Shown piece by piece: positions 10,381-25,146 of a DNA stretch of 30,268 bases (the stretch's first letter is position 1; the number at the start of each line of letters is the position of its first letter). Both the position numbers and the translations under genes were made by a program. Under the pieces are notes generated by a model. That model ran no database searches, was not told the DNA's origin, and saw only the letters and a program-made list of their open reading frames with translations. The stretch spans positions 1 through 30,268 of the IMG/VR virus record IMGVR_UViG_3300032088_001405; one strand, written 5' to 3'. Source of the stretch: a virus.

Positions 10381-11017
10381 AAGCTAAGTTTCCTGATATT
10401 GTTATTCTGTAATCTGTACTGCTATAGAAAGGTGTTACACTATGCTTTAGTTTTGCTGGAAACAGTATGCATGTCTTTGACCATTTCTTATCTGCTGGTA
10501 TTGACATTGTTGCTAGATCGCCTTTGTAATCAGCATAATGGAACTCTAATAATCCATTCATTCTCTCTACAGCATTATTGCCTGGGCCGCTTGCTTGTTC
10601 TGTTTCTATGTCATAGGGTATTTCATAAAAAATAATAAAGCTAAACACACCGGCATGATCGTGTATAGGCTGAAACTCATACCTCTCTTGAAAATTAACC
10701 CAAAGACTATCTAAACTTACTTTAAGGTTATCTCTTTGTTTCTTAGGAAATGAAGCCCGCCATACTTCTAAATGATTATATTCTGAGTCATGCTTATCAG
10801 CTAAGGCAAGCATCTTCTTTTCAATTACATTTCTACTATCAGATAATGAGTATGATTTCTTTAATTGGCCAATTAAATTATCACCATAGTTTACTGCACT
10901 ATTAAAGTCTTTCTTTATTTCTTCGACTTCTTTCTTAATAGTCATAAAGTCAAAGTCGTTAAATTTATCTACTACAATGCCGCCATTACCAAAGCCATAA
11001 AATCCGTTTTCAATCAT
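10358..11017 (-). CDS. 2-oxoglutarate/Fe(II)-dependent oxygenase
   Basis: The 219-residue protein has a C-terminal double-stranded beta-helix. The first iron-ligand motif is in PIHDHAGVFSFIIFY (117-131, His119 and Asp120/His121), a core strand GLLEFHYADY follows at 155-164, the distal ligand is His192 in FPAKLKHSVTPF, and Arg204 lies 12 residues later (DYRITISGN) to bind 2-oxoglutarate. The N-terminal 100 residues are helical. Such phage enzymes hydroxylate proteins, nucleobases or small molecules. The substrate here is unknown. The start ATG overlaps the upstream stop as ATGA. Confidence 0.75.
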   Translation of the reverse strand: MIENGFYGFGNGGIVVDKFNDFDFMTIKKEVEEIKKDFNSAVNYGDNLIGQLKKSYSLSDSRNVIEKKMLALADKHDSEYNHLEVWRASFPKKQRDNLKVSLDSLWVNFQERYEFQPIHDHAGVFSFIIFYEIPYDIETEQASGPGNNAVERMNGLLEFHYADYKGDLATMSIPADKKWSKTCILFPAKLKHSVTPFYSSTDYRITISGNLAFEYATND

Positions 11018-11478
11018 ACCTTAATACCTTTCAGCTCATGGTCTTCAATTAATTGTTTAAGTTCTTTCTTAGTGTACATACTTGCTAACATTTCAACTTC
11101 GTCTTGTTTCATGTTAGGATTTAATTGTTCAATTATTTTTACAGCAGAATTATTACTTGTCTTTTTCTTAAAGCCCTGCCAAGGATGAAATTCTTTCTTA
11201 CCTGTATTGCCGCACTGACATAGTAAGTACCACTGTAGTTTAGGATGCTTGTCTCCTAGTACTGCCCAGTTCTTGTTATAGTATTCGTTTGTCTTAAACA
11301 CAGCAAGTTCTGCTTTGTCTCTATTACCTTTAACGTTACTCATGTATCTATTAAGATTCCATAAGTCGCCTTTGATATCTTTGCGTCCTACATCTGTACA
11401 TGCATCGTATAGTTGCTTCATGCCACCATCAAGTGCTGGAATAAGTTCTTTAAATAAATCTAGTTCTTTATTTGGCAT
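11014..11478 (-). CDS. Hypothetical protein, 154 aa
   Basis: I do not recognise a function. The 154-residue helical, lysine-rich protein has WNLNRYMSNVKGNRDKAELAVF, a central HPKLQWYLLCQCGNTGKKEFHPW (two Cys, two His, Trp-rich) and a C-terminal helical pair (DEVEMLASMYTKKELKQLIE). The central block could hold a metal or bind a partner. Size and helix content would allow a replication accessory factor, but I have no motif to support that. It overlaps kdsB by 11 nt and the oxygenase by 4 nt. Confidence 0.65.
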   Translation of the reverse strand: MPNKELDLFKELIPALDGGMKQLYDACTDVGRKDIKGDLWNLNRYMSNVKGNRDKAELAVFKTNEYYNKNWAVLGDKHPKLQWYLLCQCGNTGKKEFHPWQGFKKKTSNNSAVKIIEQLNPNMKQDEVEMLASMYTKKELKQLIEDHELKGIKV

Positions 11479-12142
11479 GCCATTCCTCTATATCACTTGG
11501 TGAATTAATCTCTACTCCATTATAGTATACACTCAAACAGCCAACTTGCCAACCGTTTTTTAACCAGCGTAACTGTTCTAATTTTTCAACTTCTTCTTCA
11601 CGTTCTACGGGTAAGTTAGTATACATTTCTAATGCGTTGCGTCTGTATCCGTATACACCTAAGTGCCAATCACCATAGCCCGTCATGCCTCTACCAAACC
11701 ATAGTGCTTGGTCCCTACCACGTACCATCTTAACTGAGTTAGGATCGTTTTGTTTGTCTTCGGGCATGTGTGTAAACACTGTTGTTACAGGATAATGCTG
11801 TAAGTGCTGTAGTGCCTTTTCAATCATATCAAGTGTAACATCAGGCATGTCGCCTTGTACATTAATAAACTGATCGTACTTCTGCATGTAGTCTAGTTTG
11901 ATTGCGCCTGCACATCTTTCAGTGCCATTTGCGTAGTCTGTGTTATCTATAATAACACTTGTGTTTTGAAACACACTAGCAATACGTACATCATCAGTAA
12001 GCACGTATGTTGGTATCTTAGACGCAATACAAGCGTCATACACACGTTTTATCATGGGAACACCATCTAACATAGCTAGAGGCTTTCCGGGCAAGCGTGT
12101 GCTGTTATATCTTGCGGGTATAAGAATGGCTGACGATGTCAC
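11468..12142 (-). CDS. kdsB: CMP-Kdo synthetase (3-deoxy-manno-octulosonate cytidylyltransferase)
   Basis: KdsB activates Kdo with CTP to give CMP-Kdo, the donor for Kdo transferases. The 224-residue product shows the nucleotide-binding IPARYNSTRLPGKPL (8-22), NGTERCAG (72-79), NVQGDMP (94-100), HLGVYGYRR and EKLEQLRWLKNGW, all hallmark KdsB motifs. It is slightly shorter than E. coli KdsB (248). I place the start at GTG 12142 because a perfect AGGAGG lies 6 nt upstream. The longer in-frame TTG (12157) is itself part of that ribosome site. It overlaps kdsA by 38 nt and follows it directly, forming a two-gene CMP-Kdo unit inside the early uvsW train. Confidence 0.93.
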   Translation of the reverse strand: MTSSAILIPARYNSTRLPGKPLAMLDGVPMIKRVYDACIASKIPTYVLTDDVRIASVFQNTSVIIDNTDYANGTERCAGAIKLDYMQKYDQFINVQGDMPDVTLDMIEKALQHLQHYPVTTVFTHMPEDKQNDPNSVKMVRGRDQALWFGRGMTGYGDWHLGVYGYRRNALEMYTNLPVEREEEVEKLEQLRWLKNGWQVGCLSVYYNGVEINSPSDIEEWHAK

Positions 12143-12884
12143 GTACCACCTCCTCAAAGTTATCTAAGCGGAGCATGTTAGGACCATCGCTTGGTGCTAG
12201 ATCAGGTTCAGGATGGACTTCCAAGAAAAAAGATTGGATCCCAAGAGCAGACCCGCTACGAGCCAGCCCAGGCACGTAATCACGATTGCCACCTGAGCTA
12301 TCGCCTTGTCCTCCGGGTTTTTGGGCAGAGTGCGTACAATCGAAAACAATATCATGTTCAAAATTGTCGAGCATATACATAAGACCAGTATAGTCAACGA
12401 CAAGAGTGTTATAGCCAAAACTAGTTCCCCTTTCAGTTATCCAGACGTCTTTAGCGCCTTCACATTTACTTAGCACACCTTTCATGTCCCAGGGTGCCAT
12501 AAACTGACCTTTTTTAATATTAACAATTTTATCTGTAGCACAAGCAGCTTTGATTAAATCGGTTTGTCTACACAAGAACGCAGGAATCTGATAGACATCA
12601 ACTGCATCTTTAAATTCTCTTTCAATACGTGCAACCTGCACATAGTCATGTACATCAGTAAGTGTCTTTACACCTAGTGTTACTTTGAGTGCAAGGAAGT
12701 CTGTTAGTGTTGCTTCCATACCCATGCCACGTTTGCCCTGCATACTTGAACGGTTAGCTTTGTCGTAACTTGCTTTGAAGTAGTATTCAATGCCATACTT
12801 GTCACATACACGTTTGCACTCTTTAGCAATCTCTGCCGACTGTGCTAGTCCTTCGTGTTGACACGGTCCTGCTATAATTCTCAT
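12105..12884 (-). CDS. kdsA: Kdo-8-phosphate synthase
   Basis: KdsA condenses phosphoenolpyruvate with arabinose 5-phosphate to Kdo 8-phosphate. The 259-residue TIM-barrel enzyme shows AGPCQHE (5-11), FKASYDKANRSS (36-47), GKRGMG, TDVH (76-79), IPAFLCRQTDL (100-110), NIKKGQFMAPWDM (122-134), FDCTHSAQKPGG (181-192) and FLEVHPEPD. Cys8, His185, Glu222 and Asp233 correspond to the metal ligands of metal-dependent KdsA enzymes (Aquifex type). E. coli KdsA has Asn at the Cys position. The length is normal (259-284). It couples upstream by ATGA and downstream to kdsB. Arabinose-5-P isomerase (kdsD) and Kdo-8-P phosphatase (kdsC) are not in this window and would have to come from elsewhere in the phage or from the host. 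Confidence 0.95.
   Translation of the reverse strand: MRIIAGPCQHEGLAQSAEIAKECKRVCDKYGIEYYFKASYDKANRSSMQGKRGMGMEATLTDFLALKVTLGVKTLTDVHDYVQVARIEREFKDAVDVYQIPAFLCRQTDLIKAACATDKIVNIKKGQFMAPWDMKGVLSKCEGAKDVWITERGTSFGYNTLVVDYTGLMYMLDNFEHDIVFDCTHSAQKPGGQGDSSGGNRDYVPGLARSGSALGIQSFFLEVHPEPDLAPSDGPNMLRLDNFEEVVRDIVSHSYTRKI
12149..12154 (-). promoter_or_regulatory. Ribosome binding site that sets the kdsB start
   Basis: AGGAGG on the minus strand, 6 nt before GTG 12142, inside the kdsA coding region. It fixes the kdsB start at GTG and rules out the upstream TTG that overlaps it. Confidence 0.8.
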
Positions 12885-13138
12885 TTTGAATCCTTTACCA
12901 TATAATAGAGATTTACTAGTTTATCCATTTGTTTTGCTAACGTAGGATTAGTTGCTGCCACTTCGCACAAGTTATTCCACTCGCCGTAGTCAAGTAATTT
13001 GCCTTGCTCTCTTGCAACAGCACCCGGATCACCGCCTACAATCCAACGTGGTATCTCAGGCTTGTCAGCATAACGAGCGAACACAACACCGTTGGCCCGC
13101 TCGTATATTAAAGTTTCATTTGGGATTAATTTTCCCAA
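12881..13138 (-). CDS. Conserved T4-like hypothetical protein, 85 aa
   Basis: A protein of this type (LIPNETLIYERANGVVFAR, then IPRWIVGGD, ending in a helical segment with LVNLYYMVKD) is, as far as I recall, widespread in marine T4-like phages without an assigned function. The first half looks like a small beta sheet and the second is helical. The start is TTG 13138, immediately after the yhhQ stop. Its own stop overlaps the kdsA ATG as ATGA. Confidence 0.7.
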   Translation of the reverse strand: MGKLIPNETLIYERANGVVFARYADKPEIPRWIVGGDPGAVAREQGKLLDYGEWNNLCEVAATNPTLAKQMDKLVNLYYMVKDSK

Positions 13139-13819
13139 CTACTCAGCTTTCTTCTTCTTAGCTGGTGCTTTCTTCTTAGCTGGTGCTTTCTTCTTTGCTG
13201 CCGGCTTTGGTGCTTCTACTGGAGCATCAATTAATCTACCATTTAGGTAACGTAGTAATACACCGTATGCTGGTAGGAAGATAATAAGTCCTACTGCAAT
13301 CTTAATCACAACTTGTGATCCTGCAATCTCCATCCAGTTAGCAGCCATATACTCATCTGCTGAGTTGTTAAACGCTACTGCAAAGAATGTGTATGTGTCA
13401 ATGATGTTTGCAACAACTGTTGACAATGCCGGTGCTAACCACCACATACTCATGCGCTCTCTAATGTATTGGAACACATACACGTCAAGCATTGTGCCTA
13501 CGGCGTATGCAGTTGCTGATGCAAAACCAATACGCATTGCTACTGACTGTGGAGCACCTTCAGCAAGTACTACTGCAATTGATCCAATAATAGCAAGTGG
13601 ATATGCCGCCGCAATAGTTGCTCTAGCAATGTTCTTGCCTAGCATTCTAACAGTTAAGTCAGTTGCTAATACCACAAGCGGGAATGTAAACGCCGCCCAT
13701 GTTAATTTAATGCCTGCAATTTCTACCGGAATAGAAACTAAAGCATTTGAAATAGTAATCACTACAACGTGCAGAAGTGCAAGTTTAAGCATCATACCTT
13801 TATCAATGTTACTAAACAT
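13139..13819 (-). CDS. yhhQ: YhhQ-family queuosine precursor transporter with lysine-rich tail
   Basis: The 226-residue membrane protein has about six hydrophobic segments. It closely follows E. coli YhhQ, which imports the queuosine precursors preQ0/preQ1: FPLVVLATDLTVRMLGKNIAR (46-66), ILDV-like TMLDVYVF (109-116), WWLAPALSTVVANIIDTY (126-143), NWMEIAG, and FLPAYGVLLRYL near the end of the membrane part. A phage copy could raise preQ supply for tRNA queuosine or 7-deazaguanine DNA modification, but no other que/dpd gene is in the window. The last 22 residues are an added Lys/Ala/Pro tail (PAAKKKAPAKKKAPAKKKK) not found in E. coli YhhQ. ATG 13819 has AAGGA upstream. Confidence 0.9.
   Translation of the reverse strand: MFSNIDKGMMLKLALLHVVVITISNALVSIPVEIAGIKLTWAAFTFPLVVLATDLTVRMLGKNIARATIAAAYPLAIIGSIAVVLAEGAPQSVAMRIGFASATAYAVGTMLDVYVFQYIRERMSMWWLAPALSTVVANIIDTYTFFAVAFNNSADEYMAANWMEIAGSQVVIKIAVGLIIFLPAYGVLLRYLNGRLIDAPVEAPKPAAKKKAPAKKKAPAKKKKAE
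13160..13195. repeat. Perfect 18-bp tandem duplication in the yhhQ tail
   Basis: Two identical copies of AGCTGGTGCTTTCTTCTT lie at 13160-13177 and 13178-13195, with a partial third nearby. They encode the repeated KKKAPA units of the YhhQ tail on the minus strand. Slippage could easily change the copy number. Confidence 0.9.
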
Positions 13820-13823
13820 AATA

Positions 13824-14186
13824 TTATTTTCCTTTATTTACTTCGGTGCCTGATGTTCGACGAACAATGTCGTCGTGATTAAATTCAGCCCAGTATAGTT
13901 CAAAAGCGACACCGTCTTCTAAACCTTCAAACTGGTGAATTTTTCCGGGCTTTACTTGTGTAAAGTCACCTGCTTCAAGAATAGTCTCATCAACTAGTCC
14001 TTGATCATCTTGCCAAACTCGAACAAGCATCTTGCCCGATTCAACAAAGAATCCGTTCCATTTAAATTCGTGTGCGTGTTCGCTACACTTATAACCTGCG
14101 TTAAAATTAATACGGTGAAACTCTAGTACACCGTTGGCGTGAATTAGTTCTGTATCACCCCAAATTTTTCCTGCTTTAATTCCCAT
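13824..14186 (-). CDS. Single-domain cupin protein
   Basis: The 120-residue cupin carries a metal-site motif SEHAHEFKWNGFFVESG (35-51, His37/His39 and Glu40) and the second motif PGKIHQFEG (80-88, His84). Such small cupins include sugar-phosphate isomerases and epimerases, dioxygenases and binding proteins. A role in sugar metabolism would fit the kdsA/kdsB neighbours but is inference. It sits between the YhhQ transporter (4-nt gap) and a 169-aa unknown, with an AGGAAAGGA leader before ATG 14186. A second, fused cupin occurs at 24370-25146. Confidence 0.75.
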   Translation of the reverse strand: MGIKAGKIWGDTELIHANGVLEFHRINFNAGYKCSEHAHEFKWNGFFVESGKMLVRVWQDDQGLVDETILEAGDFTQVKPGKIHQFEGLEDGVAFELYWAEFNHDDIVRRTSGTEVNKGK

Positions 14187-14200
14187 AATTTTTCCTTTCC

Positions 14201-14707
14201 TTAGAGTAATAGTGCGTATTCAATAATTTCACACTGTCTACTAATGTCTTTAACAAAAAATGCACACAGCGGATTTTCTCCATCTGTAATCGGTACACTT
14301 AACAGTTGTCCATTCTTCATCTTTGGAAAGTACCATTTTACATCTGTGTAAAAATTTGTTATCTTTATTTCTGCAAAATCTGTTTTGTAGCTTGATAATG
14401 GATTAAACAAAAACGCTTCAAATCCTCTATCATTCAAACTTGTAAGCGGAAGTATTTCTAAATCATTTCCGCTTTCACTGCAACCAACAGCTATATTCCA
14501 ATCTACAGGCATAGTAATTTCTTTACCGCCTATTTCTAATACCATTGCCGGAGCACTAAATGATTCTAAGAATATTAAAGGAACAAAGAAAAAATCAGGA
14601 TTCTTTGGATCGCTATTATCTAATACACTAAATCTTACATCGTCATCTATCTGCTCTGGCAAATCATTTAATAAAAAACACTCGTTTTCTAATGTTAATA
14701 TTCTCAT
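14201..14707 (-). CDS. Hypothetical protein downstream of uvsW
   Basis: Unknown soluble protein of about 168 residues, acidic and rich in Phe/Pro/Leu, probably beta-sheet (DFFFVPLIFLESFSAPAM; WYFPKMKNGQLLSVPI). No catalytic motif is visible. I prefer ATG 14707, which overlaps the uvsW stop as ATGA, over the in-frame TTG two codons earlier. It is likely translationally coupled to uvsW. It may be an accessory of recombination or an unrelated conserved phage gene. Confidence 0.65.
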   Translation of the reverse strand: MRILTLENECFLLNDLPEQIDDDVRFSVLDNSDPKNPDFFFVPLIFLESFSAPAMVLEIGGKEITMPVDWNIAVGCSESGNDLEILPLTSLNDRGFEAFLFNPLSSYKTDFAEIKITNFYTDVKWYFPKMKNGQLLSVPITDGENPLCAFFVKDISRQCEIIEYALLL

Positions 14708-16167
14708 TGCCAATCTACCTTTTCTATTGTGAACGGGTATTCTGCTTCCTTATAAAACTTTTTACGTTGGGTAAGGTGCCGCTTCGCATACTTACACGTT
14801 GATGTAAGATCCCATATTTGCACGAAGTCTTTGTCCTTTGCCTTTCTTACGCCTCTACCGATAGATTGGATAACTCTTACAAAACTCTTTCCAGGCTCAA
14901 TAAGAACCAAGTTAAAGATACGAGGAATGTTAAGACCCACAGCAGCAACTCCATAGGTTGCGATAATAACCTCATTAGTTCCTTCACGTATAGTGTCATA
15001 TGTTTCTTTCCTGTCTTTTACTTTTACACTTCCGCTAACAAAAGTGCTATTAGGTATTAGTTCTGCTAACATTTCTCCTGCGGAGATTCTGTCTACAAGT
15101 ATTAGTGTGTTGCCTGAGTCTTTTATTGTGTTTAATAATTTGCCTATATATTCTACTCGATTCTTGTTTGTTACAAGATATTTTAATTCTTCTTGGTAGC
15201 CGCTGTGTGCCACTGTATCAATTAGTTGTACTACATTAACATGACATGATGATAGCACGCCTTTGTCTTGTAATTCTTTTGCTGAGATGTTACCAATCAC
15301 AGGACCAAGACTAGCATGAATACTTTCAAACTCAAACTTCTCTTTAGGTACTGTACCAGTTAGTCCCCAGCGTATTGGAGCGTTACGTAGGTTGCGAGTG
15401 AGCAGGTTCTTAAGAACTTCTGCTTTGGCTTGGTGTACTTCGTCAACGATAATAGTGCTTACACCCTCTAGGAACTCTGCCAGACTTAATACTGCGCTGC
15501 CGTCCTTGTGCTTCTTGTCGAGTATATTCAAACTCTGCCAAGTGCAAATAGTGTGAGTCTTACCTAATTGTTTTCGATCTCCAAAGTATACCCCTACGTC
15601 GAGCCCACAGTTAATATAGTCTTCTTCTGTTTGTTCTACTAACGACTTGTTAGGAACAATCACAAGTGACCTACCGTAGGGCTCAGCTATATGTGACAGG
15701 GTTGCTGTCGTAATTGTTTTACCTGCACCAGTAGCAATCTGTTGCAAGCTCTGTGGATGAGCAATAAAGTTATTAATTGCATCAACTTGATAGTCACGCA
15801 GAATTATTTCTTCACCTTCTGCAGGATGTCCTTGTGGCCATACAACGCCTTGGTCTGCCCAATAGCGTTCTGTAACTGGCATAAACTTTAAGTCAATAGG
15901 ATGACGTCTATCTTCAATGTCTACTATTTCAACATTATTCTTTTGTAACACTTGACTAACAGTGTCAAGATGATTGACATAGCCAGTACCACCAATACCA
16001 AAGAAAGCAACCTTTCCATCCCACCGACCAAGTTTATATTGTGGCATGTATCTTGCGTAAGGCACTTCAAACTTGAGAGCGTTCGCGAGCTTCCTTCGTA
16101 CGTCAACCTCTAGTCCTTCTAGTTTAATGTTTACTTCGTCTTCAATTATTAATTTACATGTAGCCAT
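14704..16167 (-). CDS. uvsW: UvsW-type RNA-DNA/DNA helicase
   Basis: This SF2 helicase resolves branched recombination intermediates and unwinds R-loops, switching T4-like phages from origin-dependent to recombination-dependent replication. The 487-residue product has an N-terminal DNA-binding region (1-110), the Q-motif-like LRDYQVDAI (123-131), Walker A ATGAGKT (145-151), DEVH (242-245), motif III LTGT (269-272), a C-terminal RecA domain with GSVKVKDR, ATYGVAAVGLNIP (403-415) and motif VI QSIGRGVRK (434-442). T4 UvsW has about 503 residues. It overlaps the upstream 401-aa gene by 14 nt and so shares its early promoter. Confidence 0.95.
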   Translation of the reverse strand: MATCKLIIEDEVNIKLEGLEVDVRRKLANALKFEVPYARYMPQYKLGRWDGKVAFFGIGGTGYVNHLDTVSQVLQKNNVEIVDIEDRRHPIDLKFMPVTERYWADQGVVWPQGHPAEGEEIILRDYQVDAINNFIAHPQSLQQIATGAGKTITTATLSHIAEPYGRSLVIVPNKSLVEQTEEDYINCGLDVGVYFGDRKQLGKTHTICTWQSLNILDKKHKDGSAVLSLAEFLEGVSTIIVDEVHQAKAEVLKNLLTRNLRNAPIRWGLTGTVPKEKFEFESIHASLGPVIGNISAKELQDKGVLSSCHVNVVQLIDTVAHSGYQEELKYLVTNKNRVEYIGKLLNTIKDSGNTLILVDRISAGEMLAELIPNSTFVSGSVKVKDRKETYDTIREGTNEVIIATYGVAAVGLNIPRIFNLVLIEPGKSFVRVIQSIGRGVRKAKDKDFVQIWDLTSTCKYAKRHLTQRKKFYKEAEYPFTIEKVDWQ

Positions 16168-17359
16168 GGTAGCTTGAGTATTTCCTTAAATAACTTTCTT
16201 GTCCGCGTATTACAATTAGATCACTATGTGCTTTAAACCACTGTGCTACTTGGCCTCTAGAACTTTGACTAAACATCAAAGTAGTAATAGGCTTCCAGTT
16301 GCTTTTTAGTAATACTTTTGATAACTTATTATTAATATACACTATCTTTGTATATTTGTCAACCCAATTGTTAAGATTTTTTTCCTTAACAAATTTATTA
16401 AAGTCTCTATTAGTTTCGTTATCTAATCTAAATAGTACCGACTGTTGTTCTATAGGCACTAATGCTCGAAAGAAATCGTATATTTCATATACCTGTTCCA
16501 TTTCATGTCCAGGCGAAATATTTACTAATAACGGAAACCTATCTAAGTTGTATAATGATAATAATACTTCTTTAAAGTTTACTTCTTCAGTTGGACAATA
16601 ATATTCTAAATCAGATCTAGTTGCAATATCATTTTGCACAGACGGGTTATCAAATATTATTTTTGATTCTGAAATTCCGTATCTACGATATTTGTCTGCA
16701 TAATTTATTACTGTACTAGGATCAAAGTTTCCTAAATCTTTAGCCATCTGAGTTCTAATGCTGTCACTAATATTATGAACACCAGTGTTATCAACATAAG
16801 AAACTAAGTTTGACTTATTTTGTACAATGTCTTTACACTTATTGTAATACGTAATTAATTCGTTATCTATTTCAAAATCTTTGTTAATAAACTTTTTTAG
16901 CACTGCATAGATATTTGATTCTGTAGCAAGAAAGAAATGTTCGTGACTTCCTTTATTATGATGGTATTGATCAGTGTGTTTTGGAATTTCGTTAATGCAT
17001 GTTATTAGCGTTTTCGAAAAAGGAAATCTTACTGCTACCCATTTTTCTTTTGGATAGTTTAAAGGAGCTTCAACAATTTTAATATATTTGCTCCTATCAA
17101 TTTTCCTTAAAGGCTTACGTAATCTATCAATAGCATAATCAAAATCATAGCCTTGTACTTCAAACTGCGGCTTATAAGTTTGCAGTTTAGTTTGCATTAA
17201 TGCAAACTGCCTATCTGTTAAGGCTGTACCTTTAAACACTTGCCTAGCAATACTATATACAATAGTACCGTCATTAGGTAGTATTTCAAATTTTTCAGGC
17301 GACTTTACAAATCCGGACAGGACTTCTAATAAGTCTTCAATACTTTTTGTTTCTAACAT
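16154..17359 (-). CDS. Large hypothetical protein, 401 aa, first gene of the uvsW train
   Basis: I do not recognise a function. The 401-residue soluble protein is rich in Lys, Asn, Tyr and Ile. Its N-terminal segment (VYSIARQVFKGTALTDRQF) is helical. Asp/Asn-rich middle parts include TDQYHHNKGSHEHFF (a His-rich run). The C-terminal part reads like an alpha/beta Rossmann or helicase-type domain (FPLLVNISPGHEMEQVYEIY; VLFRLDNE; KPITTLMFSQSSRG; SDLIVIRG), without a P-loop. It has its own perfect sigma70-type promoter, with ATG only 6 nt after the -10 box, and directly precedes uvsW. Together these suggest an early replication or recombination role. Confidence 0.65.
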   Translation of the reverse strand: MLETKSIEDLLEVLSGFVKSPEKFEILPNDGTIVYSIARQVFKGTALTDRQFALMQTKLQTYKPQFEVQGYDFDYAIDRLRKPLRKIDRSKYIKIVEAPLNYPKEKWVAVRFPFSKTLITCINEIPKHTDQYHHNKGSHEHFFLATESNIYAVLKKFINKDFEIDNELITYYNKCKDIVQNKSNLVSYVDNTGVHNISDSIRTQMAKDLGNFDPSTVINYADKYRRYGISESKIIFDNPSVQNDIATRSDLEYYCPTEEVNFKEVLLSLYNLDRFPLLVNISPGHEMEQVYEIYDFFRALVPIEQQSVLFRLDNETNRDFNKFVKEKNLNNWVDKYTKIVYINNKLSKVLLKSNWKPITTLMFSQSSRGQVAQWFKAHSDLIVIRGQESYLRKYSSYHGYM

Positions 17360-17361
17360 GT

Positions 17362-18216
17362 TTATATTATAGCATTAGATAGAGCAGTTGTCAATCGTTT
17401 TAATGGTATACCTTGTGATATTTCATCTACTGTATATTCTGTCCAGGCGTAGTCGTTCAGCCATTGTTGTCTATCTGGCATCAAAGGTGATTCAATGTCG
17501 TGCCAAAAGTCAATGTCATTGCCTACATCATAAGCAATTGAGCTTGGACTTACAAATGCTGGTATGCCAGACATGATACTTTGTGGTCCAGGGTTGCTGC
17601 TATGACATACTACTGCCCAAGCATTTTTGAATGACATGTCAAAGTCATCATAACTTCCTAATATATGTTGTGGTGCTTGCCTATACACATTTTTATACTG
17701 CCTCTCAATTTCAGGCAATGGACAACGAGGATGTGGCCTAAAGTATATAGGTCTATCAGTATGTTTTTGTATATTCTCTATTGTTTGCATTACCCACTTA
17801 CTCATTGAAGGCATGCCTCTCCATTGCTCACTTTTTTGGTGTTGGCCGCATAATAGTATATGATTGCCTTCAGTGCGCCAGGGCTTTACTTCAAGTCCCA
17901 ATAAACGCTTACGCCTATCATCGTTATTACTATCCCCAAAATAAGCATCTCTATTAATTCCATTTAGTCCTACTCTCCATGTCTTGCCGCGCTTGATACC
18001 ACCTATCTCAAGTACTATTGTAGGCTTATCATTATTCCAAATAGATTGATTTGCTGCCATTCTTCCATTCCATAATACGCTCCATATTACATTTACATCA
18101 GCATTGTTATTATTATGCACAACAGAATGACCTGCGTCTTTGAGACTTTTCTCAAACGCATTAAATACTGGCTTGCTATTCATAGCGCCATATTGAGTCC
18201 ACAAACTAAATTTCAT
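17362..18216 (-). CDS. KpsC/KpsS-like (Capsule_synth) glycosyltransferase, paralogue A
   Basis: The 284-residue protein resembles the GT-B-type capsule polysaccharide proteins that include beta-Kdo transferases KpsC/KpsS. Signs are TWRVGLNG (79-86), HILLCGQHQKSEQW (119-132), a TDRPIYFRPHP block (153-163) with the HP motif that in related CMP-sugar transferases contacts CMP, and HSSNPGPQSIMSGIPAFV (205-222), the serine/glycine block of the family. It shares this layout with the genes at 21043, 21960 and 22948. A late-type TAAATA promoter and AGGA site precede ATG 18216. It is monocistronic, since the early uvsW promoter starts at its 3' end. Donor and acceptor are not proven. CMP-Kdo is the natural suspect. 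Confidence 0.75.
   Translation of the reverse strand: MKFSLWTQYGAMNSKPVFNAFEKSLKDAGHSVVHNNNNADVNVIWSVLWNGRMAANQSIWNNDKPTIVLEIGGIKRGKTWRVGLNGINRDAYFGDSNNDDRRKRLLGLEVKPWRTEGNHILLCGQHQKSEQWRGMPSMSKWVMQTIENIQKHTDRPIYFRPHPRCPLPEIERQYKNVYRQAPQHILGSYDDFDMSFKNAWAVVCHSSNPGPQSIMSGIPAFVSPSSIAYDVGNDIDFWHDIESPLMPDRQQWLNDYAWTEYTVDEISQGIPLKRLTTALSNAII
17366..17394 (-). promoter_or_regulatory. Consensus sigma70-type promoter of the uvsW/kds train, leaderless geometry
   Basis: On the minus strand, TTGACA (17394-17389), 17 nt, then TATAAT (17371-17366), both perfect. ATAAAC follows and then ATG 17359, so the expected start of transcription falls at about the first base of the start codon. The promoter is embedded in the last codons of the upstream KpsC-like gene. 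Confidence 0.87.
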
Positions 18217-18219
18217 TGG

Positions 18220-18227
18220 TTAAATAT
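18220..18227 (+). promoter_or_regulatory. Late-type promoter TTAAATAT for the plus-strand GT operon
   Basis: The TAAATA core lies at 18221-18226, 30 nt before ATG 18257, with AAGGA (18245-18249) correctly spaced for translation. This is an ordinary late promoter plus leader, in contrast to the TAAATA sites that abut start codons elsewhere. Confidence 0.55.
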
Positions 18228-18236
18228 TCCTATAAC

Positions 18237-18244
18237 GTATTTAC
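18237..18244 (-). promoter_or_regulatory. Late-type promoter GTAAATAC, divergent
   Basis: Minus-strand GTAAATAC (18244-18237), followed by a 20-nt leader with AGGA and the ATG at 18216. It is back to back with the plus-strand TTAAATAT site, so both directions of the glycan island fire from one 40-bp intergenic region. Confidence 0.55.
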
Positions 18245-18256
18245 AAAGGATTTCAA

Positions 18257-19099
18257 ATGACAAACATAACTGTGGTTACAACATTTCATAAGCCTGGATT
18301 AGATTTATATGGACAAAGATTTTTAGATAGTTTTGCGCAAAGAGTTGATCCTAGAATTAAATTGCTTGTATACGCAGAAAGTTGTAATCCAAAAAACCCT
18401 AACCCTGAACAAATAACAATACTTGATGCTAAAGAAGTTTTGCCAAAACTAAATGCATTTAAAGAAAAGTATAAAGATGTTCCACATGCAAATGGAAATA
18501 TTGCAAATCATCCTGCACGTAACGGACGTAAGGATTGGAACAAAGAATTTAAATGGGACGCTGTACGCTTTGCTAACAAGACATATGCTGTGTATGACGC
18601 TTGTACACGCTCTAAGGACTGGTGTGTATGGATGGATGCAGATACCTTTGTACACAGTGATTGGAGTTATCAACAGTTTAAAGAATTACTTCCAGAAGAT
18701 AAATGGATAACATATGTAGGCAGAGGAAAAGGATCACAGACATGGCCCGAGTGCGGCTTCTATGGTATGAATCTAGGTCATCCTGTATGCGGACAATTTC
18801 TTAAAGAGTTTGAACGTATGTATGAGGATGCAGACAATGGTATGTTTAGACTTGTTGAGTGGCATGATAGTTTTGTGTTTGGTCATATACTAAAAAATCT
18901 AATTCCAGTAAATAACAATGTACTAGATTATAGTGCAGAGATGTATTTGAAGGAAGCCAAGTCAGGCGGCGGCGGACATCCGCTAATTAACACTGTACTC
19001 GGAAAATGGATAGACCATATGAAGGGTGCTAGAAAGAACACTGGCAAAAGCAAGTCATCAGATATAATGGTAAACCGAAAAGAGTCTTATTGGAAATGA
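18257..19099 (+). CDS. GT-A-type glycosyltransferase
   Basis: The 280-residue enzyme has a Rossmann-like start (ITVVTTFHKPGLDLYGQRF) and a DxD motif WMDADTFVH (125-133) for metal and nucleotide-sugar binding. Also visible are a GRGKGSQTWPECGFYGMNL acceptor-side segment and a GGGGHPLIN loop. It would transfer a sugar from an NDP-sugar. Specificity is unknown. It opens a three-gene plus-strand operon (ATGA overlap with the GT25 gene) behind a late-type promoter with an AAGGA site. No signal peptide is present, so it acts in the cytoplasm. Confidence 0.75.
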   Translation: MTNITVVTTFHKPGLDLYGQRFLDSFAQRVDPRIKLLVYAESCNPKNPNPEQITILDAKEVLPKLNAFKEKYKDVPHANGNIANHPARNGRKDWNKEFKWDAVRFANKTYAVYDACTRSKDWCVWMDADTFVHSDWSYQQFKELLPEDKWITYVGRGKGSQTWPECGFYGMNLGHPVCGQFLKEFERMYEDADNGMFRLVEWHDSFVFGHILKNLIPVNNNVLDYSAEMYLKEAKSGGGGHPLINTVLGKWIDHMKGARKNTGKSKSSDIMVNRKESYWK

Positions 19100-19782
19100 A
19101 GTCGTATATCATAGCTCTAAGTAAAATTAAAGGTAGCTGGGAAAGCGGCTGTCGATTAAAAGAAGAGCTTGAAAACTTTAACATGGAAGCTGAATTGTTT
19201 GAAGGAACATACGGCAACGATGCTGTTGGAATGATGGAAGAAGAAGGACGTCAATTACACTCTTGGGGTGTAAAGGGACCTGCTAAAGAAGTTAAACACA
19301 AAGACAAATATGATAAGAAAGCAAGTATGCCTGGAGTAAAAGGTTGCTTCTATTCTCACTATAGGCTTTGGGAAAAGTGTGTTGAAGTAGGTGAACCTAT
19401 AATTGTGTTCGAAGATGATGCACATGTTGTACGTCCGTATAAACCTGTTGAATGGGTAGATGTTTTGAGTCTAGTATCCAGTCACAGAAAGAAGATGCAA
19501 CGTTACGTAAAGTATCTTGAAAATCCTGAGGGCGAACCTGCTGCAATGAATTACAAACAAGGTAGTATGCCTGGCAATGCAGGCTATGCAATCAAACCAC
19601 ATGCTGCTGCAAAATTAGTACATGCTTACAAAAATAGTTACTTGCCTGCAGATAACGCAATAAACCAATACGTTGTTAAAATTCAAATACATAATTATAT
19701 GATGGGTAAAGCTATGTCTAGAGAAAGAACTAGGGGAAAACCTAGTCTTATAAGAACAAAATATTGGGATGACGTTAAATGA
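19096..19782 (+). CDS. GT25-family (LPS-type) glycosyltransferase
   Basis: The 228-residue protein shows the GT25 pattern: an N-terminal YIIALSKIKGSWESG strand-loop, GCFYSHYRLW (83-92), the metal-binding FEDDA (105-109) and GNAGYAIKPHAAAKLV near the C-terminus. GT25 enzymes add galactose, glucose or related sugars to lipooligosaccharide or to collagen-type hydroxylysine. I chose ATG 19096, which overlaps the upstream stop (ATGA), over the in-frame TTG at 19090. It overlaps the downstream fusion gene as ATGA, so all three genes are coupled. Confidence 0.8.
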   Translation: MKSYIIALSKIKGSWESGCRLKEELENFNMEAELFEGTYGNDAVGMMEEEGRQLHSWGVKGPAKEVKHKDKYDKKASMPGVKGCFYSHYRLWEKCVEVGEPIIVFEDDAHVVRPYKPVEWVDVLSLVSSHRKKMQRYVKYLENPEGEPAAMNYKQGSMPGNAGYAIKPHAAAKLVHAYKNSYLPADNAINQYVVKIQIHNYMMGKAMSRERTRGKPSLIRTKYWDDVK

Positions 19783-21050
19783 TTGATATTGTGTGCGTAT
19801 ATAAAACTAATCCAGAAGGGATTTATACTGCTGATTGGGTAAACATATTACATGCTGGTATTAAGAAGCATTGCAATTTGCCTTATAAATTTTCTTGCCT
19901 TACAGATAGTGATGAGGATATACCTGGCAAGATTGCTTTACAAAAAGATTTACGTGGCTGGTGGTCAAAGTTAGAATTATTTACAAAAGGATTATTTACT
20001 GGACCTACACTATACTTAGATTTAGATACAGTTATTAGCGGCAGCATAGATTCTATTATTAATAAATTAATTTCTGAAAACAAATTTACAATGATTAAGG
20101 GCAAATCTAAAAGATCGTCTAGTTGTATTATGTACTGGAACGGTGACTACTCTTACATATACAAAAAGTTTAATAAGAACAAAGATAAGATAATGTCAAC
20201 TTATATAACTAGAGAACAGTATGGTGACCAGGCATTTATTGCTGAACAAACTAAACATGTATACTTGCAAGATGTAGTTGGCAGCTCAGAAGTTGATTAC
20301 GAAAGTAATATTAGACGCCTTGGTAATAGAAATGCAAAAATAATATTATTTGCAAAACCTAATAATAAACCTCACACAAGTTTCAATCATATGGTTGTTA
20401 AAAATTGGACTATGCTAGGTGAAGACTTTAGTAACGATGTTGAGGATAGGCGTGGCTGGACTTGGCCAAAGCATGATAAGTTTTGTTGGAAAGTTATGCG
20501 TAAGCATCCTGACCTGCCTAAGAAGATGTCAAGGTATGTAACTAGGACCGGCGCAGTACTTCAAGCAGGCGGTAACTGCGGCTATTATGCTGAAGCATAT
20601 TCTAAAATATTTAATAAAGTAATTACATTAGAACCTGACTTATTAAACTTCTATTGTTTATTAGAGAATACAAAAAAATGTAAAAATGTTGTACCGTTTA
20701 GAGCTGCACTTGGTGACAAGAGCGATATGATACAAATGACATCTCCAAAAACAAATAATGTAGGTATGCATTATATTGACGGAGCAGGTGATATACCACA
20801 AATAACAATTGATAGTTTAAATATTAAACATTTAGATCTTATACATTTAGATATTGAAGGTTACGAACTATTTGCTTTAAAGGGTGCAGAAGAAACCATT
20901 CGACGTTGTAAACCTACAGTGGCACTAGAATATAATAAACTTGCAGACAAATACGGTTATACTATGTATGATTTAAACAAATGGTTTGCAGATCGAAACT
21001 ATGTTAATCATAGTCGACACGAAAGTGACTTTGTATTCATACCTAAGTAA
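19779..21050 (+). CDS. Bifunctional glycosyltransferase-FkbM methyltransferase fusion
   Basis: Two domains are visible in 423 residues. Residues 1-230 are a GT-A transferase with DxD motif LYLDLDT (78-84) and a QYGDQAFIAEQ segment typical of glycogenin/GT8-like folds. Residues 255-423 are an FkbM-type SAM methyltransferase: SAM loop LQAGGNCGYYAE (261-272), acidic TLEPD (283-287), FRAALGD, and LIHLDIEGYELFALKGA (354-370). FkbM enzymes O-methylate sugar hydroxyls. The fusion suggests that a sugar is added and then methyl-capped by one protein. It ends by overlapping the convergent KpsC-like gene by 8 nt. Confidence 0.85.
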   Translation: MIDIVCVYKTNPEGIYTADWVNILHAGIKKHCNLPYKFSCLTDSDEDIPGKIALQKDLRGWWSKLELFTKGLFTGPTLYLDLDTVISGSIDSIINKLISENKFTMIKGKSKRSSSCIMYWNGDYSYIYKKFNKNKDKIMSTYITREQYGDQAFIAEQTKHVYLQDVVGSSEVDYESNIRRLGNRNAKIILFAKPNNKPHTSFNHMVVKNWTMLGEDFSNDVEDRRGWTWPKHDKFCWKVMRKHPDLPKKMSRYVTRTGAVLQAGGNCGYYAEAYSKIFNKVITLEPDLLNFYCLLENTKKCKNVVPFRAALGDKSDMIQMTSPKTNNVGMHYIDGAGDIPQITIDSLNIKHLDLIHLDIEGYELFALKGAEETIRRCKPTVALEYNKLADKYGYTMYDLNKWFADRNYVNHSRHESDFVFIPK

Positions 21051-21960
21051 TATAGTCCCGCATATGTTTCCATGCTTGGCCTGTTTTAAGTTCTTCAAAA
21101 TTCCAATGGCTCATTGATATTTTCTTAATCCAAGTGTCTCTATCAAAGTGTTGAGGATTTTCAATTTTAGTAATATCAGTATTAGCAATATCAAATGCTT
21201 GACTAATTTTTGGATTAGGATCTAACACAAACACTGGTAATCCTTCGATTGCTGCTGCTACGCCTGGGCTACTATTATATGTTATTACAGCATGTGCATT
21301 AATAAAGTCTTGCCTAATATCAGGCTTGTGAGATATTACTACACCCGGCTTATTGATTTGCAAATATTGCTTTGCTCTTTTGTCTCCCGGGTGCGCACGT
21401 ACTACAATTGGTCTATCTGTAAACATACGCAATGTTTTAATTGTTTGCATAACCCATTGCATTACATCCAAACCTTGCATACTCCAACCGCCGTTACGCT
21501 GTAAACATATTACAATATGATGACCTTTTGTACGTTCAGGTTGTAATCGAATGCCTAAGTTACGGCTAATACTTTCCCAACGCTTAGGATCAGGATTGTC
21601 CCAAAAATAGTTACCAGTTGTAGGAAATACTCCGTTCAAACTGTAACGTAAGTAATGCTTTGCATTAGTCTTATCTACATACAAAAACAAATTACTGTCA
21701 ATTATAACTGTGTGTTTCTTATGTTTTCTTTGATTATCAATTACTGCTTTACGTAATTTAAGGTGGGGACTATTAGGACTAGATTCGTGTACATATCCTT
21801 GTATAACACCAACATCACTAAGTTGCCATCTATCACTTTGAGATTGCATTCCATTATCGCCACATGCACTTGCTCCCTGTGCAAACAGTCTCAACACCTG
21901 TTCTTTTTCAGGGTTTTTGTTTTTGCTTGGTATGCCTCTCATATAGCTTACTACTTCCAT
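21043..21960 (-). CDS. KpsC/KpsS-like (Capsule_synth) glycosyltransferase, paralogue B
   Basis: The 305-residue protein has the same architecture as its three relatives in the window: LRYSLNG (104-110, cf. WRVGLNG), HHIVICLQRNGGWSMQG, FTDRPIVVRAHP (180-191) with an intact HP motif, and VITYNSSPGVAAAIEGLPVFV (225-245). Its N-terminal VLRLFAQGA is shared with paralogue D (NMFAQGA). It is last in the late minus operon 25146-21043 and overlaps paralogue C by one base (TAATG). Similarity between paralogues is limited to the motifs, so they probably make different linkages or use different acceptors. Confidence 0.75.
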   Translation of the reverse strand: MEVVSYMRGIPSKNKNPEKEQVLRLFAQGASACGDNGMQSQSDRWQLSDVGVIQGYVHESSPNSPHLKLRKAVIDNQRKHKKHTVIIDSNLFLYVDKTNAKHYLRYSLNGVFPTTGNYFWDNPDPKRWESISRNLGIRLQPERTKGHHIVICLQRNGGWSMQGLDVMQWVMQTIKTLRMFTDRPIVVRAHPGDKRAKQYLQINKPGVVISHKPDIRQDFINAHAVITYNSSPGVAAAIEGLPVFVLDPNPKISQAFDIANTDITKIENPQHFDRDTWIKKISMSHWNFEELKTGQAWKHMRDYIT

Positions 21961-22958
21961 TATTCGTCGCCTTTGTTTCTTGCACTATGACTAATGTAAG
22001 GAAGTAATCGATTAATGCAAGTACCGTCTTGCATCTCTGCTGGTGTCCATTGGCACCATGCTAGATTATAGAACAACTGTCTTACTTCATCTTCATGTGG
22101 AATATGCATATTTTCAATATTGATTAACTTATGTTCAGTTATGTCGTATGCAAATCCGCCTTCGTCTATTGTCATAACAGGCACTCCGTATAGTAATGCA
22201 TCAATTGCTATTCCGCTAGAGTAAGTAATTACTGAGTGTGCATCTTGCATCTGGTATTCAAATGCAATTTTAGATCCGTCTACTACTTTAACATCTTTTA
22301 ATCCTGCAAATGCTAGGCGCTTAAACAAGTCATTATGATTAGTCATTCCTTTGTCACTTATTGCAGGATGTACACGAATCTCAATTGGACGTTCACTAAA
22401 GCGTCTTAATTCTACAGCAGTATCAAATACCCAATCATTAATATCGTTGTGTCTTAGACTTGCATCGCCTGCAAGTTGTAAGGCAATAACAATCTTTTGT
22501 CCACGTCTACGGAAGCCGTTGTACTCTAAATTTAGTTCTTCAAAACGCTGTGCTGTTTGGTTATCTTCAAATCCCCAATGTGCATCTTTATTCATAAATC
22601 CATTTAGTCCAACTCTATAGTGTGAATGATGGTGTGTAATTTTTCTACCTAGCAACGGAGTTTCAATACAGATAAATGTATGGGCTTTTTCAGCAACACT
22701 TGCTCTAACAGTATGATGTATGTTTGTTCTATCTGGCTTCCAACTACCTGTCATTACAGCAACATCACACTTACTGTATTTTTCGTCATATGCAAAATCT
22801 ACACCTAGGCCTAAACCTATTTCTTTATTAAAGTTTCGCAGTTTTTTATATTCTGATTTTTCTGCTGGTATTGTTGTCATTATGCCTTCATGAAATGCAC
22901 GTAGAATATCTCTTTCTCTATTATTTCCTGCGCTGTTCATATACACTTTATACTTCAT
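21960..22958 (-). CDS. KpsC/KpsS-like (Capsule_synth) glycosyltransferase, paralogue C
   Basis: The 332-residue protein is the longest of the four paralogues. It shows CDVAVMTGSWKPDR (a first-domain loop), HYRVGLNGFMNKDAHWG (113-129), KIVIALQLAGDASLR, SERPIEIRVHP with an intact HP motif (197-198), and HSVITYSSGIAIDALLYGVPVM (242-263). YRVGLNG and the aromatic loop after it match paralogue A, suggesting these two are closest. No signal peptide or membrane segment. It overlaps paralogue D by 11 nt. Confidence 0.75.
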   Translation of the reverse strand: MKYKVYMNSAGNNRERDILRAFHEGIMTTIPAEKSEYKKLRNFNKEIGLGLGVDFAYDEKYSKCDVAVMTGSWKPDRTNIHHTVRASVAEKAHTFICIETPLLGRKITHHHSHYRVGLNGFMNKDAHWGFEDNQTAQRFEELNLEYNGFRRRGQKIVIALQLAGDASLRHNDINDWVFDTAVELRRFSERPIEIRVHPAISDKGMTNHNDLFKRLAFAGLKDVKVVDGSKIAFEYQMQDAHSVITYSSGIAIDALLYGVPVMTIDEGGFAYDITEHKLINIENMHIPHEDEVRQLFYNLAWCQWTPAEMQDGTCINRLLPYISHSARNKGDE

Positions 22959-23718
22959 TTAATAGTCTCCATGCTGTTCCATTTTTAAATTCATCTATGT
23001 GGAATTGTCCGTATGCTAAATGACAAGCCCATTTATATATTTTATCTTTATCTAACTTTGTTGGTGTCTCAATAAGACTTAAATCTTTGTCGCACACCGG
23101 ATCTGCTGCTGTTGGCGCTGTTGTAAACGCAGGTACACCTTCTAACACACTTTCTAATGCTGCTATACTTTGATAAGTTACAAGTGCATGTGCATCTACT
23201 AGGTCATCAAATATTGTAGAAGTTATTCGCTGTTGTCTTGGTGCTTTATCTCTGATCTTAATAGGACGATCTGTATACTTCTTAATTTCAGCAATAGTGT
23301 TGTTTAACCATTCTTGTCTATCTATACCATAGAACTTACAAGGTTTTTCACTTGGTGTTACCAACAGAATATATCGTCCGCTATTTTGAGACTTTATTGT
23401 GTAGTTAAGTCTACGCCATCTATCATCTGGTCTATCAATAATTTTATTATGCTGTACATCATCTTTAACTACACGATGATATAATTTCCAGCCATGCGGA
23501 TTAGATGTAGATTTATAATTTCCTATATATCCGCTATCCATATAATAGAAAGGATGATTATTTTCCCAGCACCAATGTATTAACTTACGTTTACCCATAC
23601 TTCTAATCATTATAGGATTGTTACCAAAATTATAATCGTAATCTTGCATAGGTAAGTTTGCACCTTGTGCAAACATATTTACATATTCATCAGTTTTGTT
23701 TTTACTTAAACATATCAT
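22948..23718 (-). CDS. KpsC/KpsS-like (Capsule_synth) protein, paralogue D, HP motif lost
   Basis: The 256-residue protein belongs with paralogues A-C by order of segments: MFAQGANL near the start, GRYILLVTPSEKPCKF, YTDRPIKIRDKAPRQQ, and ALVTYQSIAALESVLEGVPAF. Where A-C have R-x-HP, this one reads RDKAPRQQ, so the HP dipeptide that contacts the nucleotide in related CMP-sugar enzymes is gone. It may be inactive, structural, or use another donor. I start it at ATG 23718 (17-nt overlap with the GT gene). The frame is open to 23781 but that would give an 80-nt overlap. The chosen N-terminus aligns with paralogue B. Confidence 0.7.
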   Translation of the reverse strand: MICLSKNKTDEYVNMFAQGANLPMQDYDYNFGNNPIMIRSMGKRKLIHWCWENNHPFYYMDSGYIGNYKSTSNPHGWKLYHRVVKDDVQHNKIIDRPDDRWRRLNYTIKSQNSGRYILLVTPSEKPCKFYGIDRQEWLNNTIAEIKKYTDRPIKIRDKAPRQQRITSTIFDDLVDAHALVTYQSIAALESVLEGVPAFTTAPTAADPVCDKDLSLIETPTKLDKDKIYKWACHLAYGQFHIDEFKNGTAWRLLNEV

Positions 23719-24373
23719 ATAGTTCTTGTTTCCACAAGTTATTAAATTCACAGTCTCTGTAATTTTCAAACCAAGGACCACCTTCTGTGTAGTGGATTAG
23801 ATTTGGTTTTTCAATATCGTCATACACTCCTACTAAGTAATTCCACGTATGATCTAGTTCACCTATTTCGTCATCTTTAAGCCAACTTAATCTATGTAAG
23901 TATGCTCCTGTTTTTTCTACATCGTTTACAAACTCAGCTGTAACTACTTTATTAGATGGGTGTTCACAATTAAATAGCATAACACTTGACCAGTTCTTAC
24001 GTGGATAGATAGTTTGCTTTTGTCCATCCATTTTAAATTGTTCTTTAACTTTGTAATCATGTTGTACACACATTACAGCATACTTGTCATCTGCTTGTGC
24101 AAATAGTTCTGCAATATCAGTTGTAAGGATCATATCACAATCCATAAACAATGCCCATCCTTTGAAGTCAGCAAGTTCGGGTATAAGAAATCTAGTAAAG
24201 GTAAATTCAGTCGAAGCTAGTTTATCTACAGGACGACTATACCAACCTGCATCTCTTAGTTCCTGTTGCTTTAATGGAATTACTTCTGCATCTGGTTGTT
24301 TAGATAGGATACTATGTTTACACACTTGGTATGCAATATCTTCTCGCGGATCATATCCTACAAATACTTTCAT
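23702..24373 (-). CDS. GT8-like glycosyltransferase
   Basis: The 223-residue GT-A enzyme starts MKVFVGYDPREDIAYQVCKHS. It has the DxD motif FMDCDMILTTDI (76-87), NWSSVMLFNCEH, and the C-terminal NLIHYTEGGPWFENY, matching phage and bacterial GT8-type transferases in which the HxTxGGPW loop binds the donor. It couples to the upstream cytidylyltransferase-cupin gene by ATGA and to paralogue D by a 17-nt overlap. The sugar is unknown. Confidence 0.8.
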   Translation of the reverse strand: MKVFVGYDPREDIAYQVCKHSILSKQPDAEVIPLKQQELRDAGWYSRPVDKLASTEFTFTRFLIPELADFKGWALFMDCDMILTTDIAELFAQADDKYAVMCVQHDYKVKEQFKMDGQKQTIYPRKNWSSVMLFNCEHPSNKVVTAEFVNDVEKTGAYLHRLSWLKDDEIGELDHTWNYLVGVYDDIEKPNLIHYTEGGPWFENYRDCEFNNLWKQELYDMFK

Positions 24374-25146
24374 TTATCTACTCTTTCTATGTCTTCTTCA
24401 ATACAGTTAGTACCATATTGTATTTCTACTAATTTTAAATTTGTGTTGTGTTCGTTAGCAAGTTGGTGCCAAGTTCCTACAGGTATATGCAACGACTCGT
24501 GTTGCTTATATACTCCTAGTGTTTCTACATCGGTACTACTTGTGTTAATAGTATATACTGTTGCTGTGCCTTCTGCAATAAACCAATGCTCTGAACGTTC
24601 TTGATGTCTTTGCATTGACAACTTATTGCCCGGCGGCACTGCTAATTCCTTAACTTTTGTGTGGTTATCGTATTCATGTATCACTCTGTAGTACCCCCAT
24701 ATACGCTCTGTCTTTGGTGCTTTCCACTCGTCTAGTATCCAGCTACTTGAATTCTTTTTATCTTCGCCGCCTACACCAAACGCAAATTCTACATTAGGCA
24801 TATCACCATATGTAGCATACTCTGGTGTTGTTGTGTTAGTCCTATCTCCACCGTTAGCAAAGATTACTTTGATGTCTCCATGTGTACTTAGCGTATGAAA
24901 AATTGCATGACATGCACTGTCGTCACTATCGTCAAAACCAATTACTTTGTCAACAATTTCCATTTCTTGTATTAGTGCAATACGTTCTTTGAAAGGCATA
25001 AATGGTCTGCCTTTCTTACGTGTAAGCCAATCATCACTATTCACGCCAACAATAAGTTTGTCGCCGAGTTTCTTTGCTTCGTTGAAATAGGCTAGATGCC
25101 CTGAGTGTAGTGGATCAAAGCCACCTGTTACTAATACTACGTTCAT
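24370..25146 (-). CDS. Cytidylyltransferase-cupin fusion
   Basis: Residues 1-125 are a cytidylyltransferase domain of the glycerol-3-P/heptose type (TagD, RfaE/HldE C-terminal): GGFDPLHSGHLAYF (8-21, HxGH His14/His17), GVNSDDWLTRKKGRP (34-48) and a FANGGDR loop. Residues 145-258 are a cupin like the C-terminal domain of type II mannose-6-P isomerase/GDP-mannose pyrophosphorylase: ERIWGYYRVI, QRHQERSEHWFIAEG (179-193), HIPVGTWHQLAN (220-231). A single chain would activate a sugar or polyol phosphate and perhaps isomerise it. It heads the late minus operon. The TAAATA core ends only 5 nt before its ATG. Confidence 0.82.
   Translation of the reverse strand: MNVVLVTGGFDPLHSGHLAYFNEAKKLGDKLIVGVNSDDWLTRKKGRPFMPFKERIALIQEMEIVDKVIGFDDSDDSACHAIFHTLSTHGDIKVIFANGGDRTNTTTPEYATYGDMPNVEFAFGVGGEDKKNSSSWILDEWKAPKTERIWGYYRVIHEYDNHTKVKELAVPPGNKLSMQRHQERSEHWFIAEGTATVYTINTSSTDVETLGVYKQHESLHIPVGTWHQLANEHNTNLKLVEIQYGTNCIEEDIERVDK

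Follow-up and report, generated by a model that had tools for sequence, protein, structure and literature searches.

The retaining transferases that add 3-deoxy-D-manno-oct-2-ulosonic acid (Kdo) in beta linkage are defined by an absolutely conserved Asp in a QXXXD motif, by an HP motif that binds cytidine monophosphate (CMP) and by a Glu acting as general base (PMC10148158, PMC12887879). On the side of viruses, kdsA and kdsB have already been reported as auxiliary metabolic genes in the surface ocean (PMC10653327), a viral genome from the environment is reported to encode KdsA (PMC5332604), and Kdo pathways have been predicted in the giant viruses CroV and Fadolivirus (PMC9614988). Here we describe the IMG/VR virus record IMGVR_UViG_3300032088_001405 (positions 1 to 30,268, hereafter the window), a 30.3-kb fragment with 38% GC from a large phage of the T4-superfamily type, which carries kdsA, kdsB and four paralogous glycosyltransferases (GTs) that we call GTa, GTb, GTc and GTd. 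A CMP-Kdo supply combined with KpsC-like transferases was the best single explanation for this gene set; for GTc it is demonstrated only as regards fold and motifs, and for the other three transferases it is a possibility. The evidence leans, by a modest degree, towards a phage glycan-building module in which KdsA and KdsB would boost CMP-Kdo and transferases of the KpsC/KpsS fold, together with others, would build a Kdo oligosaccharide. All open reading frames of a previous, sequence-only reading of this DNA were found at the same coordinates; those carrying the argument are the following.

11468..12157, minus strand: kdsB-like gene for a predicted CMP-Kdo synthetase (KdsB), CTP_transf_3 match at 1.6e-26; start codon uncertain (TTG inside the end of kdsA)
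12105..12884, minus strand: kdsA, 3-deoxy-8-phosphooctulonate synthase (KdsA), matching TIGR01362 and NF003543, with Kdo 8-phosphate (KDO8P) synthases as PDB relatives
17362..18216, minus strand: GTa, predicted KpsC-fold glycosyltransferase of the QXXXS type (QHQKS), with RPHP, HSS and E in the base column
21043..21960, minus strand: GTb, paralogue of the QXXXG type (QRNGGWSM), with RAHP, NSS and D in the base column; fold by homology
21960..22958, minus strand: GTc, canonical-type paralogue with QXXXD (QLAGD), RVHP, YSS and E in the base column
22948..23718, minus strand: GTd, the most divergent paralogue, Q replaced by P, HP lost (RDKAPR), D in the base column

The four transferases form one family, since their alignment contains invariant columns (R..PI..R, S and G.P) and each of them retrieved relatives of the other three (BLASTP, E<1e-5, 129 loci). 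The sequence-only reading had described them as paralogues with common sequence blocks, which stands, except that its HP block does not extend to GTd. The ATG at 23718 was favored over the GTG at 23781 as the start of GTd. Searches of Pfam, PHROGs and NCBIfam gave no accepted family for the four proteins, and PDB sequence searches with one transferase and two profiles found nothing. AlphaFold (AF2) models were obtained from phage alignments for GTa and GTc, with predicted local distance difference test (pLDDT) values of 94.2 and 93.8, respectively. In Foldseek searches the best match of the GTa model was KpsC (6mgd, template modelling (TM) score 0.56), and out of 30 PDB matches reaching E<=1e-3, 26 were chains of KpsC, WbbB or KrkA. 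For GTc, the highest TM-scores shown were those of KpsC (0.45-0.54); the lowest E-value belonged to a UDP-GlcNAc 2-epimerase, but at a TM-score of 0.29. Membership in the UDP-GlcNAc 2-epimerases was rejected, the Foldseek TM-score being ~0.3 and the profile alignment being at control level. The KpsC/KpsS-type fold anticipated from the sequence is thus borne out by the predicted models of GTa and GTc, and GTb probably shares it by homology.

Profile comparisons pointed in the same direction for the phage homologues that have the QXXXD motif. Their profile matched KpsS (hhalign 93.1%, P 3e-7) and the N-terminal part of KpsC (91.7%), with values of 0.2% each for the epimerase and KdsA controls, and the alignments placed the QXXXD, HP and Ser motifs opposite those of KpsS and KpsC. 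Taken by themselves, the subfamily profiles of GTa, GTb and GTd gave no significant match (hhalign, 0.3-15%). One relative matched the Capsule_synth model PF05159 at E 0.039.

The state of the active-site motifs was counted over 406 aligned homologous domains. GTc-type homologues showed Q...D in 9/9 cases, and QLAGD of GTc aligns with QTRAD of KpsC and QMQGD of KpsS. The GTa subfamily had Q...S in all 127 members, with HP kept, while the GTb type had Q...G in 112 of 139 and Q...D in a separate group of 27. The R, H and P of the (K/R)XHP motif were present in 100% of the homologues of the GTa, GTb and GTc subfamilies. In the GTd subfamily, P replaced Q in 130/131 and the nucleophile position was occupied by P, V, A or I, and the H of the HP motif was K or R in 131/131. 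An acidic column was found in nearly every homologue (two gaps), as E in the GTa and QXXXD types and as D in GTb (QXXXG) and GTd; spacing and a low-confidence global profile alignment suggest its correspondence to the Glu within EDAFLRS of KpsC. Because pairwise ratios of nonsynonymous to synonymous substitution (dN/dS) were 0.13-0.33, with synonymous sites near saturation, purifying selection appears to keep all the transferase types.

With respect to the donor genes, the claim of an adjacent kdsA-kdsB pair was upheld: the two genes overlap, kdsA encodes a clear KDO8P synthase and the kdsB product is a divergent CMP-Kdo synthetase, judged from its sequence to belong clearly to the KdsB family. 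KdsA cleared the curated equivalog cut-offs (TIGR01362, 314.8 bits with a cut-off of 314; NF003543, 327.7 with a cut-off of 242), and its best PDB relatives were exclusively KDO8P synthases. Its identity to the best cellular relatives found was only ~49-52%, compared with 73-93% among phage copies, which argues for a phage lineage already established and against the recent uptake of a host gene. The top NCBIfam matches of KdsB were by far KdsB models (E 2.5e-50) and its best PDB relatives were all KdsB; it scored below every curated cut-off, TIGR00466 and PRK05450 among them (109-171 bits vs 155-281). The catalytic R, K and H and the motifs QGD and LEQLR were invariant across 103 phage homologues, 102 of which showed QGDM in place of QGDE and N in place of the Asp of VDTPxD, which we take to be a Mg ligand; these two changes make a shifted sugar specificity possible. 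On the other hand, the "complete" donor set proposed earlier was not recovered: searches for KdsD (TIGR00393) and KdsC (TIGR01670) were negative both for the window and for 14 related, incomplete records of up to 237 kb, so that donor supply would rely on the host at two steps.

The association of these genes was analyzed in phage loci that had been retrieved by GTa as the only query and were clustered at 90% identity. GTa, GTb and GTd occurred together in 47/47 clusters as the ordered trio GTd-GTb-GTa, and kdsA or kdsB lay near the trio in 20 of the 24 clusters with enough flank. Conversely, GTa was present at 42 of the 48 kdsA loci having at least 8 kb upstream, and two of the six loci without GTa (records behind L106 and L107) had more distant family members ~20 kb away. 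In a distant phage contig binned into the metagenome-assembled genome (MAG) MED657, kdsB directly overlaps a transferase gene. The co-occurrence with kdsA-kdsB by which the sequence-only reading was to be checked is supported; the trio also occurs without kdsA, and kdsA/kdsB without the trio.

Several observations weigh against a Kdo-building module. The trio was present without kdsA in records of 71-92 kb, which are fragments, and the complete genome of Synechococcus phage S-SCSM2R contained kdsA and kdsB but no transferase-family member; kdsA-bearing records of up to 69 kb also were devoid of any such member. PF05159, the model of KpsC and KpsS, had no match in the window, and the TM-scores of GTa and GTc to KpsC (0.45-0.56) are modest. 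The co-occurring phages are related, and all counts therefore overstate independence. The idea that QXXXD enzymes accompany kdsA/kdsB was tested and found unsupported, since they occurred in 9/20 clusters with kds genes and in 1/4 without (p=0.61). Among the four window transferases, only GTc has the QXXXD nucleophile; the other three lack the Asp, and GTd lacks the CMP-binding HP motif as well, so that the earlier description of four KpsC/KpsS-like beta-Kdo transferases is not supported in that form.

An alternative proposal is that enzymes of the KpsC fold act generally in phage glycan synthesis, transferring CMP-nonulosonates or sugars activated with cytidine or uridine diphosphate, and that kdsA and kdsB serve separately, for example in synthesis of host lipopolysaccharide (LPS) during a long infection. 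The independent occurrence of the trio and of the kds genes, the nucleophile lost in three of the four enzymes, and the homology to KpsC of a transferase for pseudaminic acid (PMC12887879) are in keeping with this proposal. However, it has against it the kds linkage in 20 of the 24 clusters, the overlap of kdsB with a transferase gene in a distant relative, the HP motif retained in GTa, GTb and GTc and the full KpsC motif set of GTc, and we regard it as a serious but clearly less probable alternative.

About half of the clusters with kds genes had only Asp-less transferases in the scanned region, and five kdsA-containing records of ~98-120 kb hold just three family members each. This result bears on a further alternative, namely that GTa, GTb and GTd have no catalytic activity and serve as scaffolds or lectin-like partners for GTc and the GT8-family enzyme encoded next to GTd, as the lost nucleophile, the absence of HP in GTd and the fusion of GTd to GT8 might indicate. 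Such a role seems improbable to us, because those clusters would usually leave no active partner of the QXXXD type to be scaffolded, and because the acidic base column is invariant, as are Q and HP in GTa and GTb. Conversely, the same clusters imply that the Asp-less enzymes themselves may use the phage CMP-Kdo, if the set does.

For a Kdo-building module, the following mechanism can be proposed. KdsA and KdsB of the phage would enhance two steps of the host's CMP-Kdo supply, for which the host itself would have to contribute arabinose-5-phosphate and a phosphatase for Kdo8P, and the KpsC/KpsS-fold transferases, with the GT8, GT2-like and GT25 enzymes, would build one short acidic oligosaccharide stepwise. 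Of the four, GTc is the strongest candidate for a genuine retaining beta-Kdo transferase, and most likely would act by the double displacement of KpsC, with the QXXXD Asp as nucleophile, HP and SS for binding CMP and the Glu as base. The core trio would have the fold of GTc with altered active sites. Since the CMP-binding HP and the acidic base are kept, a CMP-ulosonic sugar probably remains the donor of GTa and GTb, but no covalent adduct to Asp would form and the reaction may be inverting, whereas GTd, having lost HP, probably differs in its donor or in its role. Fusions of GT8 to GTd, of ~560 amino acids, in 43 of 131 GTd relatives suggest consecutive steps on one acceptor. The donor and the stereochemistry of the transferases are thus deduced rather than observed, as is the acceptor, for which host LPS or capsule would fit as well as virion proteins would and DNA is less likely. 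Superinfection blocking or virion decoration may be the purpose of the module.

The end of kdsA is overlapped by kdsB, both on the minus strand, and ~5 kb upstream lies a glycan island, in the order GTa, three plus-strand genes, GTb, GTc, GTd, GT8 and nucleotidyltransferase-cupin. Its remaining genes are listed below.

18257..19099, plus strand: GT2-like protein between GTa and GTb (accessory), weak PF00535 match at E 0.021; homologues also sit between GTb and GTa in relatives
19090..19782, plus strand: GT25-family glycosyltransferase (accessory), PF01755 4e-17
19779..21050, plus strand: protein with a C-terminal FkbM methyltransferase domain (accessory), PF05050 4.1e-12 and TIGR01444 8.5e-17
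23702..24373, minus strand: GT8-family glycosyltransferase, conserved partner of GTd, PF01501 7.8e-08
24370..25146, minus strand: fusion of an RfaE-like nucleotidyltransferase with a cupin of the ManC type (accessory)

A sulfotransferase (plus strand) and a polysaccharide pyruvyl transferase (minus strand) adjoin the island at window positions 25186-26516, and both would add negative charge to a glycan. A carbamoyltransferase of the NodU/CmcH type, with both Pfam domains matched, is encoded at 3632-5107 on the minus strand.

The genes lie among replication genes (uvsX at 27766 and a uvsW-like gene at 14704), and close by a queuosine/7-cyano-7-deazaguanine precursor transporter is encoded (13139-13819, minus strand; TIGR00697 above cut-off, phrog_4899), which is compatible with 7-deazaguanine chemistry. 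This setting could mean that phage DNA, and not a glycan of the surface or the virion, is what the gene set modifies. Genes for Kdo, for pyruvyl transferase and sulfotransferase and for a nucleotidyltransferase-cupin protein, however, are typical of polysaccharides, and besides the transporter no gene of a DNA-modification pathway was recognized, for which reasons we give this explanation very little credence. As for the phage itself, the closest cultured relatives of its UvsX are the jumbo myophages Vibrio phage 2.275.O, Atu_ph07 and CBB (62-67% identity), so that its description as T4-like is adequate at the level of the superfamily but not for its nearest cultured kin; its source was probably marine.

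A scan of genome contigs with the QXXXD alignment found no cellular relative. In ten bacterial genomes searched, strong matches were found only in MED657, six in number on three short contigs; one other, weak match (L248) was on a Rhodobacteraceae contig. The MED657 matches were rejected as cellular copies, the 60-kb contig being phage-like (helicase, primase and uvsW relatives); it is probably a co-binned phage, and so are two near-identical short contigs. Contigs L254-L257 of this MAG (Rickettsiales bacterium MED657) carry phage replication and glycan genes. Among relatives lacking kdsA, L077 (16032-17683) and L256 (3912-5572) have genes resembling NAD-dependent epimerases and UDP-sugar dehydrogenases downstream of the trio, putative families that possibly represent an alternative donor supply. 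The cultured Pelagibacter phage Mosig (L162), also without kdsA, encodes GTd-type proteins at 10233-11063 and 11677-12495 flanking a sulfotransferase. In cultured Caulobacter jumbo phages (CcrSC, CcrColossus and others), a hypothetical protein is a distant member of the transferase family, which makes these phages a possible genetic test system.

A literature search of incomplete coverage found no description of phage-encoded KpsC-fold transferases, which is weak evidence of novelty. It is possible, though less likely than not, that the three core enzymes transfer Kdo or another ulosonic acid, having discarded the Asp nucleophile of KpsC and WbbB and kept the fold, with the CMP site kept in GTa and GTb. 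They would then be new GT families of different, possibly inverting chemistry, evolved in phages to make a dedicated Kdo oligosaccharide out of CMP-Kdo boosted by the phage. This natural series of KpsC-fold enzymes (QXXXD, QXXXS, QXXXG and PXXX) could reveal how a covalent double-displacement glycosyltransferase shifts its mechanism. Furthermore, phage kdsA and kdsB, formerly just listed as auxiliary genes, are now tied to dedicated transferases and hence to a testable product; should this turn out to be a glycan with Kdo on the host or the virion, phages would have a new route to altered surface recognition in the ocean.

In comparison with known systems, the window has phage-encoded KdsA and KdsB in common with the marine viromes (PMC10653327). 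S-SCSM2R shares both enzymes and differs by having no transferase-family member, its KdsA being ~41% identical to that of the window. CroV and Fadolivirus likewise encode Kdo/CMP-Kdo synthesis beside glycosyltransferases, but they are eukaryotic viruses with a predicted full pathway that includes isomerase and phosphatase (PMC9614988). In a viral structure library the strongest named matches of GTc included several uncharacterized proteins of Tetraselmis virus 1 named "Capsule polysaccharide biosynthesis", which were among the best by structure (TM 0.70/0.77); this is a giant algal virus that, like our phage, has several copies. As to KpsS and PF05159, the QXXXD group matches KpsS by profile, while the window proteins do not match the Pfam model. 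From the retaining beta-Kdo transferases KpsC (GT107), WbbB (GT99 domain) and KrkA (GT140), the phage enzymes differ in their identity of ~10-16% in structural alignments, in the Asp nucleophile absent from GTa, GTb and GTd, and in being single small modules of 256-332 amino acids in tandem arrays; they resemble them in the predicted fold of GTa and GTc and in the QXXXD, (K/R)XHP and Ser motifs of GTc, to which, on a low-confidence alignment, the base Glu may be added.

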